A stretch of DNA of 64,000 nt from Sandaracinaceae bacterium. Lineage in GTDB: Bacteria; Myxococcota_A; Polyangia; Polyangiales; Sandaracinaceae. The stretch covers positions 1-64,000 of the forward strand of contig JAVJQK010000033.1 in NCBI GenBank assembly GCA_040218145.1, read 5' to 3'. A program made the translations under genes and the position numbers. The stretch's first letter is position 1, and every line of letters starts with the position of its first letter. This document shows, piece by piece, positions 52,528 to 63,003 of this stretch. The notes beneath the pieces were generated by a model that was not told where the DNA came from, did not search any database, and saw nothing but the letters and a program-made list of their open reading frames with translations.

Positions 52528-52645
52528 CGACACCGACCGTGGGGCGCCGCGCCTCGTCCGTCGAGGGGGTGACAGGTGGGAGTAATTGCACCGCCGTTCA
52601 TTTCTCCGGCATGCTGCCGGCGCCCACAGCCCCGGAGGTCCTCCC

Positions 52646-54376
52646 ATGCGTACGTCTCGTCTCCTCAGCGTCCTCGGTTGCACGCTGCTCCTCTCGCTCG
52701 GCTGCAGCGAATCGGTGACCCTCGATGATGGCGGGGTGCCCGACGACACCGGGGTCATCGTCGAGATGGACTCCGACACCCCGCCCCCGCCGGACAGCGG
52801 CCCGGTCGATCCCGACTCGGGCGTGGACGAGGACGGCGGCGTGATCGAAGTCGACGCGGGTCCTCCGTGCGGCATGGTCGGTCAGGACTGCTGCGCGGAC
52901 GAGGAGTGCGACGAGGGCTTCTGCGACTCCACCACCAACCAGTGCGCGGCCTGCGGCGGCGCGGGGGAGCCTTGCTGCCCCGGCGACGTGTGCGACGGCG
53001 GCTTCTGCGACGCCACGACCAGCACGTGCACCGCGTGCGGCATGATCGGTGACGCCTGCTGCCCCGGCGACGTGTGCCTCGACGGCTTCTGCGACGGCAG
53101 CACCGACACGTGCAGCTCCTGCGGCGGCGCGGGCGAGAGCTGCTGCCCCGGCGACATGTGCGACGCGGGCAACACCTGCAACGCGGCCGACCTCTGCGTG
53201 GGCTGCGGCGATCCCGGCGAGGCCTGCTGCGCCGACACGACCTGCAATGGTGGCGGCTGCTGCGTCTCGAACACGTGCGTCGGGGCGGGCTCGACCTGCG
53301 GCGGCGGCATCGGCGGCACCTGCATGGGCGGCAGCTGCGGCACCTGCGGCGGCGTCGGGCAGCCCTGCTGCGCGGGCGGCACGTGCACCGCCTCCACCAC
53401 CACCTGCAGCGGCGGCACCTGCGCCACGTGCGGCGGCGCCGGTCAGCCCTGCTGCCCGGGCGACTCCTGCGGCGGCGGCCTCGTCTGCGGCTCGAGCGAC
53501 ATCTGTCAGCCCTGCGGCGGCCCCGGTCAGCCCTGCTGCCCTGGCGACTCGTGCACGAGCGGCTGCTGCGACCCGAGCAGCGACGTCTGCGTCGCGGACG
53601 GCTCGGCCTGCGGCGTGGGCACCTGCACCGGCTCCACCTGCGTGGCCTGCGGCTACCCGGGCGAGGCGTGCTGCCCTGGCGACACCTGCCGCGGCGGCGG
53701 GTGCTGCAGCGCGGGCGCGTGTCTCGCTTCGGGCGAGGCGCCCACCGGGGTGAGCGGCATGGTCTGCGACCTCGGCGGCGTGGTCGCGTGCGGCGGCATG
53801 GGCGAGCCCTGCTGCGACGGCGCGGACTGCGCCGGCGGCTGCTGCCTCGAGGGCGTCTGCACCGCGGACGGAACGATGTGCGGCACGCGCACCACCTGCA
53901 GCATGGGCTCGTGCACGGCGGGCAGCTTCAGCTGCGGCGGCCCGGGCGAGCAGTGCTGCGACTTCGGCATCACGGAGATGTGCACCTCGCCCGGCCTCGC
54001 GTGCGTGGGCTTCGGCTCGGGGAGCTGCCAGGCGTGCGGTGGCCCCGGTCAGCCCTGCTGCGACGGCCAGGCCTGTGACGGCGGCGGCTGCTGCGTCGGG
54101 AACATGTGCGTCGGCTCGGGTGACAGCTGCGGCGGTGGGAGCCTCGGCACCTGCTCCGCGGGGTCCTGTCAGGGAGGGACCTGTGGTCGCCCCGGTCAGC
54201 CCTGCTGCCCCGGCATCGGCTGCAGCGGTCCCTTCGCGATCTGCGCCGGCGGCTCGGTCTGCGAGACCTGCGGCGGCGAAGGCGAGCCGTGCTGCTCGCC
54301 CCACCAGCACTGCAACGGCTCGCTCGAGTGTCAGTCCCGTCCGGGCCCGGACCTCTGCGTGCGTCCGGCGCCCTGA
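52646..54376 (+). CDS. Cys-rich repeat lipoprotein
   Basis: 576 aa. Lipoprotein signal MRTSRLLSVLGCTLLLSLGC, with GGAGG just upstream of the ATG. An Asp/Pro/Gly linker (to ~70) leads to a region with 14 copies of a CG-x2-G-x2-CC motif (for example CGGAGEPCC, CGMIGDACC, CGGPGQPCC), each followed by short Cys-bearing loops such as PGDVCDGGFC, at intervals of roughly 25-50 residues. This would give a chain of disulfide-bonded knots on the cell surface. No enzyme domain. Similar short CC units occur in the head of the haem peroxidase at 32044. Confidence 0.88.
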   Translation: MRTSRLLSVLGCTLLLSLGCSESVTLDDGGVPDDTGVIVEMDSDTPPPPDSGPVDPDSGVDEDGGVIEVDAGPPCGMVGQDCCADEECDEGFCDSTTNQCAACGGAGEPCCPGDVCDGGFCDATTSTCTACGMIGDACCPGDVCLDGFCDGSTDTCSSCGGAGESCCPGDMCDAGNTCNAADLCVGCGDPGEACCADTTCNGGGCCVSNTCVGAGSTCGGGIGGTCMGGSCGTCGGVGQPCCAGGTCTASTTTCSGGTCATCGGAGQPCCPGDSCGGGLVCGSSDICQPCGGPGQPCCPGDSCTSGCCDPSSDVCVADGSACGVGTCTGSTCVACGYPGEACCPGDTCRGGGCCSAGACLASGEAPTGVSGMVCDLGGVVACGGMGEPCCDGADCAGGCCLEGVCTADGTMCGTRTTCSMGSCTAGSFSCGGPGEQCCDFGITEMCTSPGLACVGFGSGSCQACGGPGQPCCDGQACDGGGCCVGNMCVGSGDSCGGGSLGTCSAGSCQGGTCGRPGQPCCPGIGCSGPFAICAGGSVCETCGGEGEPCCSPHQHCNGSLECQSRPGPDLCVRPAP

Positions 54377-55977: not shown

Positions 55978-57072
55978 TCAGCCGTCTTTCTTCCACGGCC
56001 CGGGCCCCTCGACCGTCTGGCGACGGGGCGGCAGCGCGGCCGGCGGCGGAACGCTCGGTGCGGATCTCGACGCGCTCGGGGCCGCGTCCGCGAACCCGAG
56101 CATGGCGAGCAGCAGCGGCTCGATCCCGCGCTTGCGGAGCTCGCCGCTCGGCGTCGCCTCGCGCCGCACCAGGTCGAAGACCGTCGCGTCGTCGAGGCTC
56201 ATGGCCACGAGGGGCGAGTGGGTCGTCACGATCCATTGCACGCGTGGATAGAGCTCCGCCAGCGCCGGCAGCAGCTCGCGCTGGAGGCGCGGGTCGAGGT
56301 TGGCCTCGGGGTGATCGATCAGCACCACCCCGTGCGGCTCGAGCGCGCCGTCCCCGTTGCGCAGGCGCGCCGCCTCCACCCGGATCATCACCTCGGCCCA
56401 GAGGGTCACCGCGGTCGCGTGTCCGAGCGAGAGCTCCCCGAAGCCCACGCGGCGTCCGTCCGGGAGATCGAGCTGCACCCCGCCCGCGTCGAAGGCGAGG
56501 CCGATCCCGGGCTGGTGCAGCAGCTTGCGGAGCGCCGAGCGCACGCGGAGGAACCACGAGGCGTGCAGCTGCTCCCGGAGCGGATCCGCGCTCTCGCGCG
56601 CCAGCGTCTGCTCCGTCTTCCGGTTGACCAGCAGCTGGACCAGGCGCGGGGCGACCTGGGCGTCGGGCGGCTTCGGATCGGTGTCGGTGGGCGTGGGGCG
56701 AGGCGCGGCGAGGAAGCTCGGCGCGCGCGGCAGGCGCAGGTGGGCGAGCACGAGCCGCCCCTCGGCGTGCGCGGAGGCCACGGCCGGATCGCTCCAGACG
56801 ACCCGCACCGGGCGACCGAGGTGGGCGAGCTTCAGCGCGCGATCCCGCGCCTCCCCGATCGGCGCGCGCACGTCGTCGGCCGGGTGAGCGCGCCCGTCGA
56901 GCGCCGCGTCCAGCTCCCCCGCGATGCCCGCGAGCAGGCTGCTCTTGCCCGATCCGCTCGCGCCCAGGAGCACCAGCGAGCGCGGCGCGTCCTCGTCGAG
57001 CGCGATGATCAGCGGCGAGAGGTGCCTGAGCGCGCGCGCTTCGATCCGTCTCAACCAGGTCATCGCTCGCAT
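55978..57072 (-). CDS. ABC-like ATPase (AAA_21 type)
   Basis: 364 aa from the ATG at 57072, which has GGAGGGG upstream (ATGs at 57087 and 57063 are also in frame). Walker A GASGSGKSS near residue 38; ABC-type signature GELSLGHATAV; Walker B GVVLIDHPEANLD; and a switch His in WIVTTHSPLVA. This is the head of an SMC/OLD-like ATPase without a TOPRIM nuclease or transmembrane part. A Pro-rich tail ends the protein. It is divergent from the radical SAM gene with 50 bases between starts. It may relate to that system or to DNA repair/defence; neither is shown. Confidence 0.87.
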   Translation of the reverse strand: MRAMTWLRRIEARALRHLSPLIIALDEDAPRSLVLLGASGSGKSSLLAGIAGELDAALDGRAHPADDVRAPIGEARDRALKLAHLGRPVRVVWSDPAVASAHAEGRLVLAHLRLPRAPSFLAAPRPTPTDTDPKPPDAQVAPRLVQLLVNRKTEQTLARESADPLREQLHASWFLRVRSALRKLLHQPGIGLAFDAGGVQLDLPDGRRVGFGELSLGHATAVTLWAEVMIRVEAARLRNGDGALEPHGVVLIDHPEANLDPRLQRELLPALAELYPRVQWIVTTHSPLVAMSLDDATVFDLVRREATPSGELRKRGIEPLLLAMLGFADAAPSASRSAPSVPPPAALPPRRQTVEGPGPWKKDG

Positions 57073-57122
57073 CGTTCGCCCCTCCATCGCGCAGGTCAAT
57101 GGTCGCTGCTACGGTGGCCACG

Positions 57123-58451
57123 ATGAGCGAAGAGCAGCGGGGCCCCGATCCTCTCAGCCCGGCCGAGCGCGCGCTCCGCATGGACGCGCCGCGACCGAAG
57201 CGAGATCTGCCGATCGCGCCCGAGGCGCCGCCCGGCAAACGCCACCTGCCGCTGCTCGCCTCCCGCCCCTCCGACGCGCGCTATCGACCGATCTACGCGG
57301 TCTGGGAGATCACCCTCGCGTGCGATCTGGCCTGCCGGCACTGCGGGTCGCGGGCCGGGAAGGACCGCCCGGGGCAGCTCGACACCGCCGAGTGCCTCGA
57401 TCTGGTCGACCAGATGGCTGACCTCGGCGTGCGCGAGGTCAGCCTCATCGGCGGCGAGGCGTACCTCCACGACGGCTGGCTCGACATCATCCGTCGCATC
57501 CGGGAGCGCGGCATGATCGCGCTGATGACCACGGGCGGGCGCGGCGTGACGCGGGAGCGCGCGCAGGCGGCCGCGGAGGCCGGCCTGCAGAGCGTGAGCG
57601 TCTCGGTCGACGGCGTCGAAGACACGCACGACCGGTTGCGGGGCGTCAAGGGAAGCCACCGCGCCGCGTTCGACGCCCTGAACAACCTGCGGGACGCGGG
57701 GATCAAGGTCAGCGCCAACACGCAGATCAACCGCCTGAGCATGCCCGAGATGCCGCGGGTGCTCGACGACATCATCGCCGCGGGCATCCACTCCTGGCAG
57801 ATCCAGCTCACGGTCGCGATGGGGCGCGCGGCCGACGAGCCGGAGATCCTCTTGCAGCCCTACGATCTCCTGGACCTCTTCCCGATGCTCGCCGAGCTGA
57901 AGGGGCGCTGCGACGCGGCGAAGGTGCGGCTCTGGCCGGGCAACAACATCGGCTACTTCGGGCCCTACGAGTCGACGCTGCGCGGCACGATGCCGCGGGG
58001 TCACATGGCCTCGTGCGGCGCGGGGCGCGTGACGCTCGGGATCGAAGCCGACGGCGCGATCAAGGGCTGCCCTTCGCTCCCCACCGAGGCCTGGACCGGG
58101 GGGAACATTCGCGACGCGTCCCTGGAGGACATCTGGGAGCGCTCGGCCCCGCTGCGCTACACGCGCGACCGCACGGTCGAGGATCTCTGGGGCTACTGCC
58201 GGACCTGCTACTACGCGGACACCTGCCGCGCCGGATGCACCTGGACGAGCTTCGTCCTGTTCGGCAAGGCCGGGAACAACCCCTACTGTCATCACCGCGC
58301 GCTCGAGCGGCAGCGGGAGGGCAAGCGCGAGCGCGTGGTGCGCAAGACGGAGGCCCCGGGCCTGCCTTTCGATCACGGCGAGTTCGCGATCGTGCTCGAG
58401 GACGTGCCCCCGGAGGGCGCGCCCCTCGAACCGGCACCGACCCTCAGCTAG
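57123..58451 (+). CDS. radical SAM/SPASM-domain enzyme
   Basis: 442 aa from ATG 57123. The radical SAM [4Fe-4S] motif is C67-DLA-C71-RH-C74. A GGE motif (LIGGEAYLHDG) binds the methionine part of SAM. The C-terminal SPASM domain carries further Cys residues (ASCGAGRV, IKGCPSL, CRTCYYADTCRAGC, YCHHR) for auxiliary Fe-S clusters. Such enzymes modify peptides or small substrates through a 5'-deoxyadenosyl radical; PqqE- and anSME-like proteins share this build. Two small proteins follow at once on the same strand and are candidate substrates. Confidence 0.93.
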   Translation: MSEEQRGPDPLSPAERALRMDAPRPKRDLPIAPEAPPGKRHLPLLASRPSDARYRPIYAVWEITLACDLACRHCGSRAGKDRPGQLDTAECLDLVDQMADLGVREVSLIGGEAYLHDGWLDIIRRIRERGMIALMTTGGRGVTRERAQAAAEAGLQSVSVSVDGVEDTHDRLRGVKGSHRAAFDALNNLRDAGIKVSANTQINRLSMPEMPRVLDDIIAAGIHSWQIQLTVAMGRAADEPEILLQPYDLLDLFPMLAELKGRCDAAKVRLWPGNNIGYFGPYESTLRGTMPRGHMASCGAGRVTLGIEADGAIKGCPSLPTEAWTGGNIRDASLEDIWERSAPLRYTRDRTVEDLWGYCRTCYYADTCRAGCTWTSFVLFGKAGNNPYCHHRALERQREGKRERVVRKTEAPGLPFDHGEFAIVLEDVPPEGAPLEPAPTLS

Positions 58452-58474
58452 AGTGCCGCGGGGAGGATGCGCGC

Positions 58475-58849
58475 GTGAGTCACCTGCTTCCTTGCGACGG
58501 CTGCGACCGTCACGTCCGGGCCGACGAGCCCGAGTGTCCTTTCTGCGGCGCCGCGATCGTGTCGCGCCCCGCGCCCGTCCTGCCCGCGGGCCGGCTGGGG
58601 CGAGCCGCGACCTTCGCGTTCGGGGCCGCGCTCGCCGCGGCGACCGCGGGCGGGTGCGGCGACAGCCACGACCGGCGCGACGACGGGGGTGAGCCGCCCG
58701 CCGACTCGGGCGTGGAGTCCGACGCGGGCGTCGATCCCGTGGACTCCGGCGTCGAGCCGGTCGACTCCGGCCCCGTCGCGCCGCCTTACGGCGCGCCTCC
58801 GAGCGACGGCGGCCCGGCCCCGCTCTACGGCGGCGCGCCCGAAGAATAG
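58475..58849 (+). CDS. small protein next to radical SAM, possible modified precursor (124 aa)
   Basis: GTG with GGGAGG about 8 bases upstream, 23 bases after the radical SAM stop. N-terminal zinc-ribbon-like motif LLPCDGC, RHVRADE, CPFCG (about residues 5-28). A hydrophobic segment RLGRAATFAFGAALAAATAG ends in GGC, which looks like a lipobox set unusually far in (Cys near 54). Then an Asp/Ser linker (DSGVESDAGVDP), and finally PPYGAPP and PLYGGAP near the C-terminus. The same four-part design is repeated in the next gene. Function not known. Confidence 0.8.
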   Translation: MSHLLPCDGCDRHVRADEPECPFCGAAIVSRPAPVLPAGRLGRAATFAFGAALAAATAGGCGDSHDRRDDGGEPPADSGVESDAGVDPVDSGVEPVDSGPVAPPYGAPPSDGGPAPLYGGAPEE

Positions 58850-58879
58850 AGTAGCTTCGGTTTCTTCCTGGAGGGTTCG

Positions 58880-59386
58880 ATGAACAGCTTGCTTCCCTGC
58901 CCCGCCTGCCAGCGCCACGTGCGCGCGGCGGAGAGCCTCTGCCCCTTCTGCGGCGAGACCCTGCCCATGTCGCTCCGCTCCCGCGTCGCCTCGCGGGCCG
59001 CGGTGCCCGTGCGGCGGCTGGGCCGCGCGGCGACGTTCGCGTTCGGCGCGGCGCTCGCGGCGTCCACGGCCAGCGCGTGCGGCGGCGAGGTCGGCGACGA
59101 GGACTCGGGCGTCGCGAACGACTCGGGCACATCGCCGAGCGACGGCGGCGCCTCCTCCGACGCGGGATCCGGGCAGGACTCCGGCACGTCGAGCGACTCG
59201 GGCACCGAAGCGGACTCGGGGATCGAGGCGGACTCCGGCGTGACCCCCGAAGACGGCGGCGGCATCGCGCCGGCCTACGGAGGCCCGACGCCGGTGGACG
59301 CCGGCCCGAGCCGACCCGACGCGGGTCGGCGCGACGCAGGGGGCGGCGTGATGCCGCTCTACGGCGGCCCGCCGCCCAGCGAGTGA
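58880..59386 (+). CDS. second small protein next to radical SAM (168 aa)
   Basis: ATG with TGGAGGG upstream, 30 bases after the previous stop. Close paralogue of the preceding gene in its first ~65 residues (LLPCPAC, RHVRAAES, CPFCGE; then RLGRAATFAFGAALAASTAS ending AC), followed by a longer DSG/DAG linker and two motifs, PAYGGPTP and PLYGGPPP. Conservation lies in the head, the hydrophobic segment and the Tyr-Gly motifs, while the linker varies, as expected if the last motifs are what matters. It is the third gene of the apparent operon. Confidence 0.8.
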   Translation: MNSLLPCPACQRHVRAAESLCPFCGETLPMSLRSRVASRAAVPVRRLGRAATFAFGAALAASTASACGGEVGDEDSGVANDSGTSPSDGGASSDAGSGQDSGTSSDSGTEADSGIEADSGVTPEDGGGIAPAYGGPTPVDAGPSRPDAGRRDAGGGVMPLYGGPPPSE

Positions 59387-59997: not shown

Positions 59998-62900
59998 ATG
60001 GAAGTCGAGAAGGGAGGCGACCCCGGCGCGGGCCTGCGCGCGCGAACGAGCGGCGAGGGGCGCGCCGCATGGCGCCTGGCGCTCCCGCTCCTGATCGCCG
60101 CGGGGTGCGCCCTCGCCGGCTGCACCGAGGGCAACACCGTGTTCGTCGACGTGCGCACGGACTACGTGCCCGGCTTCGAGTTCGTCAGCGCGCGCGCGGA
60201 GGTCGGCGCGGGCGGCGTGCTCAGGCGCGTCGATCGCGCCGCGGCGCGCGGAGAGGGCTGGGTGGAGGGCGTCCGCGTGGGCGAGATCTCCGGGCTCGCC
60301 GCCGGCACGCACGAGATCTACGTGGAGCTGCGCGACGCGGACGGCGGGCTCGTCGCCACCCAGCGCGTGATCCGGACCCTCTCCGGCGACGCGGCGGTGA
60401 CGGTGGTGATCTCGCGCGACTGCGAGGCGGTGACCTGCCCGGCCGCGGACGGCGACCCCGAGGCCACGAGCTGCCGCGGCGGCCGGTGCGCGCGCCCCGA
60501 TTGCACTCCCGAGACGCCGGAGCTCTGCCCCGATCCCGAATGCGGGGACGACTCCGACTGCAGCGCGGCCGTCGACTGCGTCGCGGGCGTGTGCGCGGAG
60601 GGCATCTGCTTCAGCTCCGCGCAGGACTTCCGCTGCGCCGGCGACGAGTGGTGCGACCCCGACGTCGGCTGCGTGCCGACCGCCGGCTCGCGCCCGGATG
60701 GAGGCACGCCCGACGCGGGCTGCGCGAACGACACCGAGGCGCGCTGCGACGACGGCCGGGACGACGACTGCGACGGGCAGATCGACTGCGCGGACGACGA
60801 CTGCGCAGGCCGGAGCTGCTCGGCGGATGCCGTGTGCGAGGCGGGCACCTGCGGGGGCTGCCTCCCGAGCGGCGGGATCGACGGCTGCGGGCGCGGGGAC
60901 GAGAACTGCAACGGCGTGGTCGACGAGGACTGCGGGTGCACGCCGGGCGCGTGGATCGGCGGGACGATCGACACGGTCGGCGACATGGGCCGCTACGCCG
61001 ACGTCGCGCTCGACGCCGTGGGGGGCGTGCACGTCAGCTATCGGGACAGCTCCGCGAACGACCTCCGCTACGCCTACCACCCGCCGAGTGGGTGGTGGAC
61101 CTTCGGCCCGCTCGCGAGCACGGGGAACGTCGGCGATCACACGGACGTCGCGGTGGACGGGAACGAAGAGCCGCACGTCGTGTTCCACGATCTGTCCAAC
61201 CGGGACCTCCTCTATCGACACCGGCGCGCGGACGGGACCTGGGAGGAGGCGGTCATCGACGCGACCGGCTCGGTGGGACGCTACGGGAGCGTGGCGGTGG
61301 GCGGCGACGGGAGCGTGCACGTCGCCTATCAGGACTACGGCGCGAACGACCTGAAGTACGCGTACCGCCCCCCGGGCGGGCTCTGGACCGCGGAGACGGT
61401 CGCGAGCGCGGGCACGGTCGGGCGCTACGCGTCGATCGGCGTCGAGGCCGACGGGACGGTGCACATCGCCTACCTCGACGACTCCGCGGGCGACCTCATG
61501 CACGCGGAGGGCAGCCTCGGCAGCTTCACCACGGAGGCCGTCGACACCGCGGGCACGGTGGGCCGCGACGCCGCCCTCGCCGTCGACCCGAGCGGCGGGC
61601 TCCACGTCGTGTACCGCGACGCGACCAACAACCGCCTGAAGTACGCCCAGCGCCCTCCCGCCGGGGCCTGGAGCCTCGAGGTCGTCGACGAGACGGCCAA
61701 CGTCGGCGAGTACGCCTCGATCGCGCTGGGCAGCGACGGGGTCGTGCACGCCAGCTACTACGACACCACCAGCGACGACCTGCGATACGCACGTCGGACG
61801 GGCGGCGTCTGGGCCACCGAGACGGTCGATCCCACGGGCAACGTGGGTCAGTACACGTCCATCGGCGTCGACGCCGCGGGCGGGGTGCACATCTCTTACC
61901 GGGACGCCTCGCGAGAGGATCTCCGCTACGCGCGCCGCGGCGCGGACGGACGCTGGCGCACCGAGCCCGTCGACACGGTGGGTCGGAAGGGCGAGTGGAC
62001 GGGGCTGGCGCTCGGCGCGGACGGTCAGGTGCACGTCGTCTATCGGGACGGAACCGACGATGACCTGCGCTACGCGTCGCGCGGGCGCGGAGGGATCTGG
62101 GAGCACGAGACGGTCGACGCGACGGGCAACCTCGCGGCGGGCACGGCGATCGCGATCGGTCCGGACGGCGCGGTCCACATCGCCTACCGCGACAGCAGCA
62201 ACGCGGACCTCGAGTACGCCACCCGCCCGAGCCCCGGGGCGCCGTTCGAGCTGACGACGGTGGACGAGGTGGGCAACGTCGGCGACGAGGCCGATCTCGT
62301 CGTGGAGGCGGACGGCACGGTGCACATCGCGCACGTCGACCGCAGCGCGGAGGATCTGCGCCTCTCGACGCTCGCGCCGGGGAGCGGGTGGAGCAACGTG
62401 ACCCTCGACGCGATGGGGAGCGTCGGCTTCGCGCCGCGGCTCGCCACCGACCCGAGCGGGGGCCTCCACCTCGTCTACTACGACAACGGGCCCGACGACC
62501 TGCGCTACCTGTTCCGGCCGGCGGGCGCCGCGTTCGCGAGCCCCGCGACCGTGCTCACGACCGGCAGCGTGGGGCGGCGGAGCGGCCTCGCGGTCGACGC
62601 GGCCGGCGGCGTGCACGTGGTCGCGTGGCGGCAGAGCGTCGACGACCTGGAGTACGCCTTCCGGCCTGCGGGCGGGCTCTGGTCCCCCGAGACGGTCATC
62701 GAGGCCGACCGGGTGCAGGAGTACGCGGACGTCGCGGTCGACGCGGCGGGCGACGTCTGGGCGGTGACCTTCGACGCGACGCCCGAGGTCGTCGGGACCA
62801 GCGCCGTGCCGCGGCTCGACCTCCGCCTCGCCCACCGGCCGGCGGGGGGCAGCTGGACGGTGAGCACCCTCGACGCGGTGGGAGACGTCGGCCGCTGGCC

Positions 62901-63003
62901 CGCCATCGCGACCACGCCGGACGGCTGGGTCCACGTGGTCTACTTCGAGAACGGCGCCGACGACCTGCGTCACCTCCGCTGGTGCCCGGAGGCAGGTCGC
63001 TGA
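59998..63003 (+). CDS. large surface lipoprotein with 14 propeller-type repeats
   Basis: 1001 aa, ATG 59998. A long N-terminus leads to a signal ALPLLIAAGCALAGC (lipobox LAGC). Residues ~45-140 form a beta domain (FVDVRTDYVPGFEF) and ~145-315 a Cys-rich block with the motif DGRDDDCDGQIDCADDDC; both are shared with the lipoprotein at 21059. From ~320 to the end there are 14 repeats of about 47 residues (pattern: V-D-x-x-G-x-V-G-x-Y-x-x-I-A-V, then G-x-V-H-x-x-Y-x-D, then D-L-x-Y-A). Fourteen is twice seven, so two seven-bladed propellers are likely. A binding or adhesion role is probable. Confidence 0.9.
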   Translation: MEVEKGGDPGAGLRARTSGEGRAAWRLALPLLIAAGCALAGCTEGNTVFVDVRTDYVPGFEFVSARAEVGAGGVLRRVDRAAARGEGWVEGVRVGEISGLAAGTHEIYVELRDADGGLVATQRVIRTLSGDAAVTVVISRDCEAVTCPAADGDPEATSCRGGRCARPDCTPETPELCPDPECGDDSDCSAAVDCVAGVCAEGICFSSAQDFRCAGDEWCDPDVGCVPTAGSRPDGGTPDAGCANDTEARCDDGRDDDCDGQIDCADDDCAGRSCSADAVCEAGTCGGCLPSGGIDGCGRGDENCNGVVDEDCGCTPGAWIGGTIDTVGDMGRYADVALDAVGGVHVSYRDSSANDLRYAYHPPSGWWTFGPLASTGNVGDHTDVAVDGNEEPHVVFHDLSNRDLLYRHRRADGTWEEAVIDATGSVGRYGSVAVGGDGSVHVAYQDYGANDLKYAYRPPGGLWTAETVASAGTVGRYASIGVEADGTVHIAYLDDSAGDLMHAEGSLGSFTTEAVDTAGTVGRDAALAVDPSGGLHVVYRDATNNRLKYAQRPPAGAWSLEVVDETANVGEYASIALGSDGVVHASYYDTTSDDLRYARRTGGVWATETVDPTGNVGQYTSIGVDAAGGVHISYRDASREDLRYARRGADGRWRTEPVDTVGRKGEWTGLALGADGQVHVVYRDGTDDDLRYASRGRGGIWEHETVDATGNLAAGTAIAIGPDGAVHIAYRDSSNADLEYATRPSPGAPFELTTVDEVGNVGDEADLVVEADGTVHIAHVDRSAEDLRLSTLAPGSGWSNVTLDAMGSVGFAPRLATDPSGGLHLVYYDNGPDDLRYLFRPAGAAFASPATVLTTGSVGRRSGLAVDAAGGVHVVAWRQSVDDLEYAFRPAGGLWSPETVIEADRVQEYADVAVDAAGDVWAVTFDATPEVVGTSAVPRLDLRLAHRPAGGSWTVSTLDAVGDVGRWPAIATTPDGWVHVVYFENGADDLRHLRWCPEAGR
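60957..63000 (+). repeat. 14 tandem ~141-bp protein-coding repeats
   Basis: Degenerate tandem array in the 3' two-thirds of the lipoprotein gene. Each unit codes for a blade-like pattern with G-x-V-H, Y-x-D and D-L-x-Y core residues. Units are diverged enough that DNA-level identity is low. Confidence 0.85.

Follow-up and report, generated by a model that had tools for sequence, protein, structure and literature searches.

A probable spliceotide-type radical SAM system with predicted zinc-ribbon lipoprotein substrates in Myxococcota

A radical SAM/SPASM enzyme and two small proteins encoded directly after it, in a 64,000-nucleotide stretch of DNA from a Sandaracinaceae bacterium (the whole stretch analysed, hereafter the window), are likely to form a spliceotide-type system with lipoprotein substrates. 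In the reading that we favour, the enzyme would excise tyramine at Tyr-Gly (YG) sites of the small proteins, which would then be exported as lipoproteins carrying alpha-keto-beta-amino-acid sites. These zinc-ribbon lipoprotein precursors look like a widespread and seemingly undescribed class, an earlier description being possible.

The gene trio

The initial annotation had described a SPASM radical SAM gene followed, after 23 and 30 bases, by two small genes with clear ribosome-binding sites, and direct reading bears out every detail. The three genes are co-directional; GGGGAGG precedes the start of the first lipoprotein gene and GGAGG that of the second. The products are also as described, with a CxxC...CPFCG head, a hydrophobic segment that is identical in both and leads into a Cys, and a pair of YG motifs each. 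The features are:

57123..58451, + strand: radical SAM/SPASM enzyme gene, 442 aa (TIGR04103 and TIGR03913 scores; PF04055 and PF13186 above cut-off)
57321..57344, + strand: CxxxCxxC of the radical SAM [4Fe-4S] cluster (C67, C71, C74), invariant in 42 aligned homologues
58014..58289, + strand: SPASM cysteines C298, C316, C359, C362, C368, C372 and C389 (PF13186 match, conserved columns)
58475..58849, + strand: ribbon lipoprotein 1, predicted precursor, 124 aa, GTG start (family profile)
58493..58546, + strand: zinc-ribbon head of lipoprotein 1 (C7, C10, C21, C24), invariant in the family; AlphaFold pLDDT 90-95 over residues 1-30
58655..58657, + strand: lipobox Cys61 (TAGGC) of lipoprotein 1; lipobox Cys in 120/120 family members
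58787..58792, + strand: YG site 1 of lipoprotein 1 (APPYGAPP), direct reading and family motif
58826..58831, + strand: YG site 2 of lipoprotein 1 (APLYGGAP), direct reading and family motif
58880..59386, + strand: ribbon lipoprotein 2, predicted precursor, 168 aa, ATG start (family profile)
58898..58951, + strand: zinc-ribbon head of lipoprotein 2, invariant in the family
59078..59080, + strand: lipobox Cys67 (TASAC) of lipoprotein 2, family lipobox
59276..59281, + strand: YG site 1 of lipoprotein 2 (APAYGGPT), direct reading and family motif
59360..59365, + strand: YG site 2 of lipoprotein 2 (MPLYGGPP), direct reading and family motif

Both lipoproteins have a Cys4 head (CxxC.RHVR...CPFCG), the identical segment RLGRAATFAFGAALAA followed by Cys, and an Asp/Ser-rich linker. 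Their YG motifs read PPYGAP and PLYGGA in lipoprotein 1, and PAYGGP and PLYGGP in lipoprotein 2. The AlphaFold model of the precursor has a confident head (pLDDT 90-95) and a signal helix, the remainder being disordered. Neither precursor has a Nif11 or NHLP leader among its Pfam and NCBIfam matches.

Three other genes of the window are of note. An AAA-type ATPase gene (55978-57099, - strand), whose product partly resembles the retron effector ATPase PtuA, diverges from the radical SAM gene across about 23 bases and is not a conserved neighbour. Further out lie a predicted exported protein with many CGGxGxxCCPGxxC repeats (52586-54376, + strand) and a 1001-aa protein with DxxGxVHVxYxDxxxDDLRYA-type repeats and a weak BNR match (59998-63003, + strand).

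Which family does the enzyme belong to?

Two NCBIfam families stand out. Against TIGR04103 (nif11-class peptide radical SAM maturase 3; Nif11/spliceotide) the enzyme scores 527.6 bits, below the cut-off of 725, and against TIGR03913 (GDL motif maturase) 483.6 bits, again below the cut-off (591.75); the third-best family follows far behind with only 155 bits. All 42 aligned homologues have their matches in these two families. An identical enzyme is encoded in a Sandaracinaceae MAG (L009), which makes a host from this family probable. A strong match to the enzyme family is present in 121 of 379 Myxococcota genomes, and an enzyme above the TIGR03913 cut-off in 0 of the 379. Because TIGR04103 and TIGR03913 are both the best models and both cut-offs are missed, with no Myxococcota genome of this sample above that of TIGR03913, sequence comparison places the window enzyme in a third sister clade, beside PlpX proper and the GDL maturases. 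Its AlphaFold model (pLDDT 87.4) finds its best solved-structure matches in the RiPP maturases SkfB, SuiB and PqqE. Plasmid sequences are not among the rows of the alignment used for folding. Two contigs from a viral collection (L140, L141) encode a distant relative of the enzyme, with 51-54% identity.

What is known of the nearest relatives? Spliceotides and the PlpX-PlpY splicease were reportedly described by Morinaka et al. in 2018. TIGR04103 corresponds to IPR026482. The PlpX splicease, a member of IPR026482, excises tyramine at Xaa-Tyr-Gly (PMC11002830), and the published PlpX tags are RPLYGLPI and RPGYGLPI (PMC10533398). An enzyme encoded on a Nostoc plasmid lies above the TIGR04103 cut-off with 853 bits; of its 394 residues aligned to the window enzyme, 209 are identical (about 53%). 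Directly upstream of its gene lies that of a Nif11 precursor whose sequence ends in GGRGSIALYGLPPELF; on the other side, a 71-aa gene occupies the place of PlpY and is a putative PlpY by gene position only. The precursor motif IALYGLPP of Nostoc resembles the motifs beside the myxobacterial enzymes of L010 (IALYGGAP) and L011 (APLYGLPP), and PLYGGPP of the window. The initial annotation knew no named system with this precursor design. For the chemistry there is a named counterpart, since the window enzyme is in a sister clade of PlpX, a splicease whose sites are X-Tyr-Gly (PMC11002830, PMC10533398).

The ribbon lipoproteins and their YG sites

By sequence, the two small proteins belong to a large Myxococcota family with a ribbon, a signal, a lipobox, a disordered linker and YG sites. 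The profile of this family (A1) was built from the head and signal region only and has no YG column. Searching the fetched loci with it gave 124 clear, complete proteins, 118 of which contain YG. The other six are ribbons on the enzyme or free-standing (L074, L086, L075) and precursors with another residue (L046, L051, L067). In the latter three, all ribbon lipoproteins, Tyr-Ser, Tyr-Ala or Tyr-Arg replaces Tyr-Gly. Across 45 diverse sequences, the C, C, RH, C, F and C of the head and the lipobox Cys never vary.

Are the YG motifs the substrate sites, as had been suggested from the window alone? The comparison supports it: in the family tails Tyr is followed by Gly in 280 of 305 cases. Shuffled tails would be expected to hold about 57 YG, and 283 are observed; in six ordinary proteins of the window Gly follows Tyr in 3 of 50 cases. 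The enrichment is thus far beyond chance. The site consensus is [PA]-X-Y-G-[AGL]-P-[PA], with 1-5 sites per protein, and the last Tyr typically lies 5-11 residues (median 9) from the C-terminal end. The residue X before YG varies, L (80), A (51), P (37), R (27), V (25) and M (24) being found.

This variety bears on the reaction. Could the enzyme act at YG with another chemistry, such as a Tyr cross-link, an epimerisation or an oxidative decarboxylation without rejoining? SPASM enzymes catalyse many reactions, the window enzyme misses both curated cut-offs, and PYG, RYG, EYG and DYG sites go beyond the MYG and LYG named for PlpX (PMC10533398). Nevertheless, TIGR04103 is the nearest family, the motif and its flanks are common to the cyanobacterial TIGR04103 system, and a cross-link would lack a second conserved partner residue near the site, where just Pro and small residues are found. 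We therefore regard a different chemistry as unlikely, and continue with tyramine excision as the preferred reaction.

The other half of the earlier proposal, that head and membrane segment act as leader and lipoprotein signal, is supported by comparison as well. In the family, 120 of 120 members have a Cys behind a hydrophobic segment; position -1 is G, A or S in 119 of them, and the residue that comes next to the Cys is usually G or S. The family thus has the hydrophobic segment and lipobox Cys of a lipoprotein, lipidation and cleavage by signal peptidase II being predicted. By E. coli rules, the residues after the lipobox Cys suggest sorting to the outer membrane.

Some members depart from this layout. 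Several Polyangium-type and related proteins (L058, L059, L062, L068, L069, L070, L079) end in YGCVF or YGCVW, and the Cys directly after YG in these members possibly points to further chemistry. Polyangium sp. (L058) is a cultured relative that has the system. In others (L071, L081, L135, L102, L109, L111, L115, L118) YG follows the lipobox Cys immediately or within 2 residues (MACYG, GCAKYG), so that the site would fall at the lipidated N-terminus.

Are enzyme and lipoproteins linked?

In 80 loci collected by the enzyme alone, a YG ribbon lipoprotein adjoins the enzyme in 63 (47 of 57 when only loci with sufficient sequence to either side are counted), an adjacency that is partly by construction within the training loci, as A1 was trained on enzyme-adjacent proteins. 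The adjoining genes often overlap the enzyme gene or lie within 90 bases. An all-against-all comparison of the ORFs within 5 kb in the 80 loci looked for another constant partner, and none is as widespread as the ribbon lipoproteins; they and second enzyme copies are the only widespread real neighbours, and no other small neighbour is conserved in these loci. The remaining neighbour clusters proved to be overlapping-frame ORFs or families of few loci and were set aside.

Independent tests of the link come from a genome survey and from unlinked copies. Of the 144 genomes surveyed in the class, 63 encode the enzyme (E at most 1e-80), 49 have an A1 match and 48 have both, with a Fisher p of about 1e-23 in which relatedness among genomes is uncorrected. 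The one apparent genome with substrate and without enzyme (G029) was rejected: the match is to the ribbon of a cytosolic protein that is unrelated and has neither lipobox nor YG. The link proposed from the window is therefore supported by co-occurrence in genomes (48 of 49, the 49th a false match) and by adjacency (63 of 80 loci). In several of the enzyme-only genomes the ribbon lipoproteins are more divergent, with YG straight after the lipobox Cys (e.g. LMACYGM), so the 15 discordant genomes reflect in part a limit of sensitivity. Four enzyme-positive loci (L017, L043, L052, L060) still appear to lack a substrate. A plasmid search with the lipoprotein gave no match.

Might the lipoproteins simply be chance neighbours, ordinary Asp/Ser-rich myxobacterial lipoproteins that happen to lie beside the enzyme? 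Asp/Ser/Gly-rich lipoproteins are frequent in Myxococcota, and other Cys-rich or Asp-rich proteins predicted to be exported are encoded in the window. Already contradicted by the genome co-occurrence, and at odds with the adjacency and the strict conservation of YG, this explanation is hardly credible.

The source genome encodes eight ribbon lipoproteins, of which the window contains two; two more adjoin a second enzyme copy on contig C52, and four are unlinked, on further contigs. YG is present in all eight, including the four unlinked ones, and in 23 of 23 unlinked copies from four further genomes (27 of 27 examined in total). The initial annotation held that the link would fall if the small proteins commonly occurred without a radical SAM gene nearby. 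Literally this is the case, half of the source-genome copies being unlinked; the link is not broken, however, because such copies occur only in enzyme-bearing genomes and all have YG. As the unlinked copies retain YG, one enzyme probably serves many dispersed substrates.

Common unlinked lipoproteins are also what a general surface motif would predict. Enzyme and lipoproteins would then still be linked, with YG serving recognition or surface binding while the enzyme modifies, for instance, the ribbon or a small molecule. Against this, YG is kept in the sister clades on different scaffolds (Nif11, DUF1843-like), enzyme and YG being all that these systems have in common, and we consider such a role for YG very unlikely. 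YG as the site of modification remains our reading in what follows.

A mobile zinc ribbon

The ribbon is not confined to the lipoproteins. Five GDL-type systems (L074, L077, L086, L098, L099) have an A1 match at the C-terminal end of the enzyme, where the window enzyme has no ribbon. In two loci (L075, L078) A1 matches a free 55-aa protein just downstream of the enzyme, to which positions 426-474 of the TIGR03913 model align as well. In a Tropicibacter enzyme (L100:3695-5317) the ribbon stands at the N-terminus; this locus has no obvious adjoining YG precursor, but nearby are another radical SAM gene and two genes for peptidases. A1 yields only ribbon lipoproteins in the 11-Mb source genome, so the similarity is not that of a generic zinc ribbon. 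A quick tree groups the fused-ribbon enzymes in one clade, with the free-ribbon pair alongside, and the labelled loci need three state changes, a count made with L100 wrongly labelled as head_lipoprotein and with overlapping substrate genes in several rows labelled none_seen.

What are the precursors of these systems? Among those of the fused-ribbon systems read are DUF1843 or DUF1843-like peptides that carry YG close to their N-terminus: PPYGVPI (L074), HVLYGRPI (L077), RPYGPAM (L098) and QPYGAGI (L099), with Pfam matches to DUF1843 (PF08898) in L074, L098 and L099. At the free-ribbon loci the precursor motif is RPLYGVFI. Some DUF1843 paralogues in these loci are without YG. DUF1843 thus looks like the precursor family of the GDL branch, one such peptide having been crystallised as a protein of unknown function (PMC10994174); the window proteins have no Pfam match to PF08898. 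The window enzyme is about 50% identical to the GDL maturases, several of which have DUF1843 precursors with YG and the same ribbon at the enzyme end. The arrangement is reversed: in the GDL systems the ribbon is on the enzyme and YG near the N-terminus of the precursor, whereas in the window the ribbon is on the precursor and YG at its C-terminus. The ribbon thus turns up in three settings, attached to the enzyme, free-standing or as part of the substrate, and probably acts as a portable module for docking or recognition between the two.

Proposed mechanism

How would such a system work? The zinc ribbon at the N-terminus would be a folded leader by which the precursor docks on the enzyme, which would then cut tyramine from X-Y-G and rejoin the chain, with a change of about -135.07 Da per event. 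The modified protein would be exported by the general secretory/lipoprotein route, Lgt would lipidate the lipobox Cys, and LspA would remove signal and ribbon together in one step, so that a dedicated leader peptidase or transporter would be unneeded. The product would be a lipid-anchored, probably outer-membrane protein with 1-5 electrophilic ketoamide sites on a flexible linker. Because spliced ketoamides inhibit proteases (PMC10373908, PMC11117315), the most likely role would be protease inhibition, by surface-bound inhibitors or reactive sites with a variable X at P1. Family, motif, lipobox, ribbon and co-occurrence enter this scheme from comparison; from these we infer the chemistry, the docking of the ribbon, the order of cleavage, the location and the function.

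Some observations count against the proposal. The enzyme is below the TIGR04103 cut-off and a PlpY-like gene was not found at the loci (best tblastn E 0.4 with the putative PlpY of Nostoc, in the 80 loci), so the reaction could have drifted. The Gly is not absolute, with Tyr-Ser or Tyr-Ala at some loci (L046, L051) and the YGC motif in Polyangium. Besides, a long folded head ahead of a signal peptide is unusual.

Compared with the spliceotides of PlpX, the window system shares X-Tyr-Gly with Pro flanks, the possibility of several sites per precursor and the nearest enzyme family: a TIGR04103 member from a cyanobacterium is about 53% identical to the window enzyme, which itself is below the cut-off. 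It differs in the precursor, a zinc-ribbon lipoprotein instead of a Nif11 or NHLP one, in the lack of an adjoining leader protease or transporter, and in having substrates that are also unlinked in the genome. The DAG-RiPPs, RiPP-lipoprotein hybrids such as DybA and NedA, likewise have a signal for signal peptidase II with a lipobox and C-terminal sites modified before export, but their modifying enzymes are MNIOs and their signal is not preceded by an additional folded head (PMC12636315), which the window precursors do have. In that work leader-independent systems were expected as likely DAG-RiPPs, and further examples beyond MNIOs were anticipated (PMC12636315). The window system departs from this expectation in its leader-like domain ahead of the signal, which would leave together with it.

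A broader scheme can be offered tentatively, as a possibility to which we give slightly less than even weight. The ribbon may be a portable recognition module of the splicease superfamily that replaces PlpY or an RRE, placed on the enzyme (at either end), free, or, in Myxococcota, as a substrate-fused leader removed by signal peptidase II. The sets of unlinked lipoproteins of a cell would then receive alpha-keto-beta-amino-acid sites and provide a surface panel of protease inhibitors with varied P1.

Perspectives

If the proposal is true, the formation of beta-amino acids in ribosomal products extends from small peptides to sets of surface lipoproteins dispersed over the genome. A 2022 paper by Scott is said to name both peptides and proteins in its title. 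The enzyme family is present in roughly a third of the sampled Myxococcota genomes. The system also offers an answer to how recognition of a precursor may do without a classical leader or RRE and how the leader may come off in the absence of a dedicated protease, and it suggests a likely role for the DUF1843 peptides. Spliced sites are handles for protein labelling as well as protease inhibitors, so spliceases with a broad preference for X would be directly useful.
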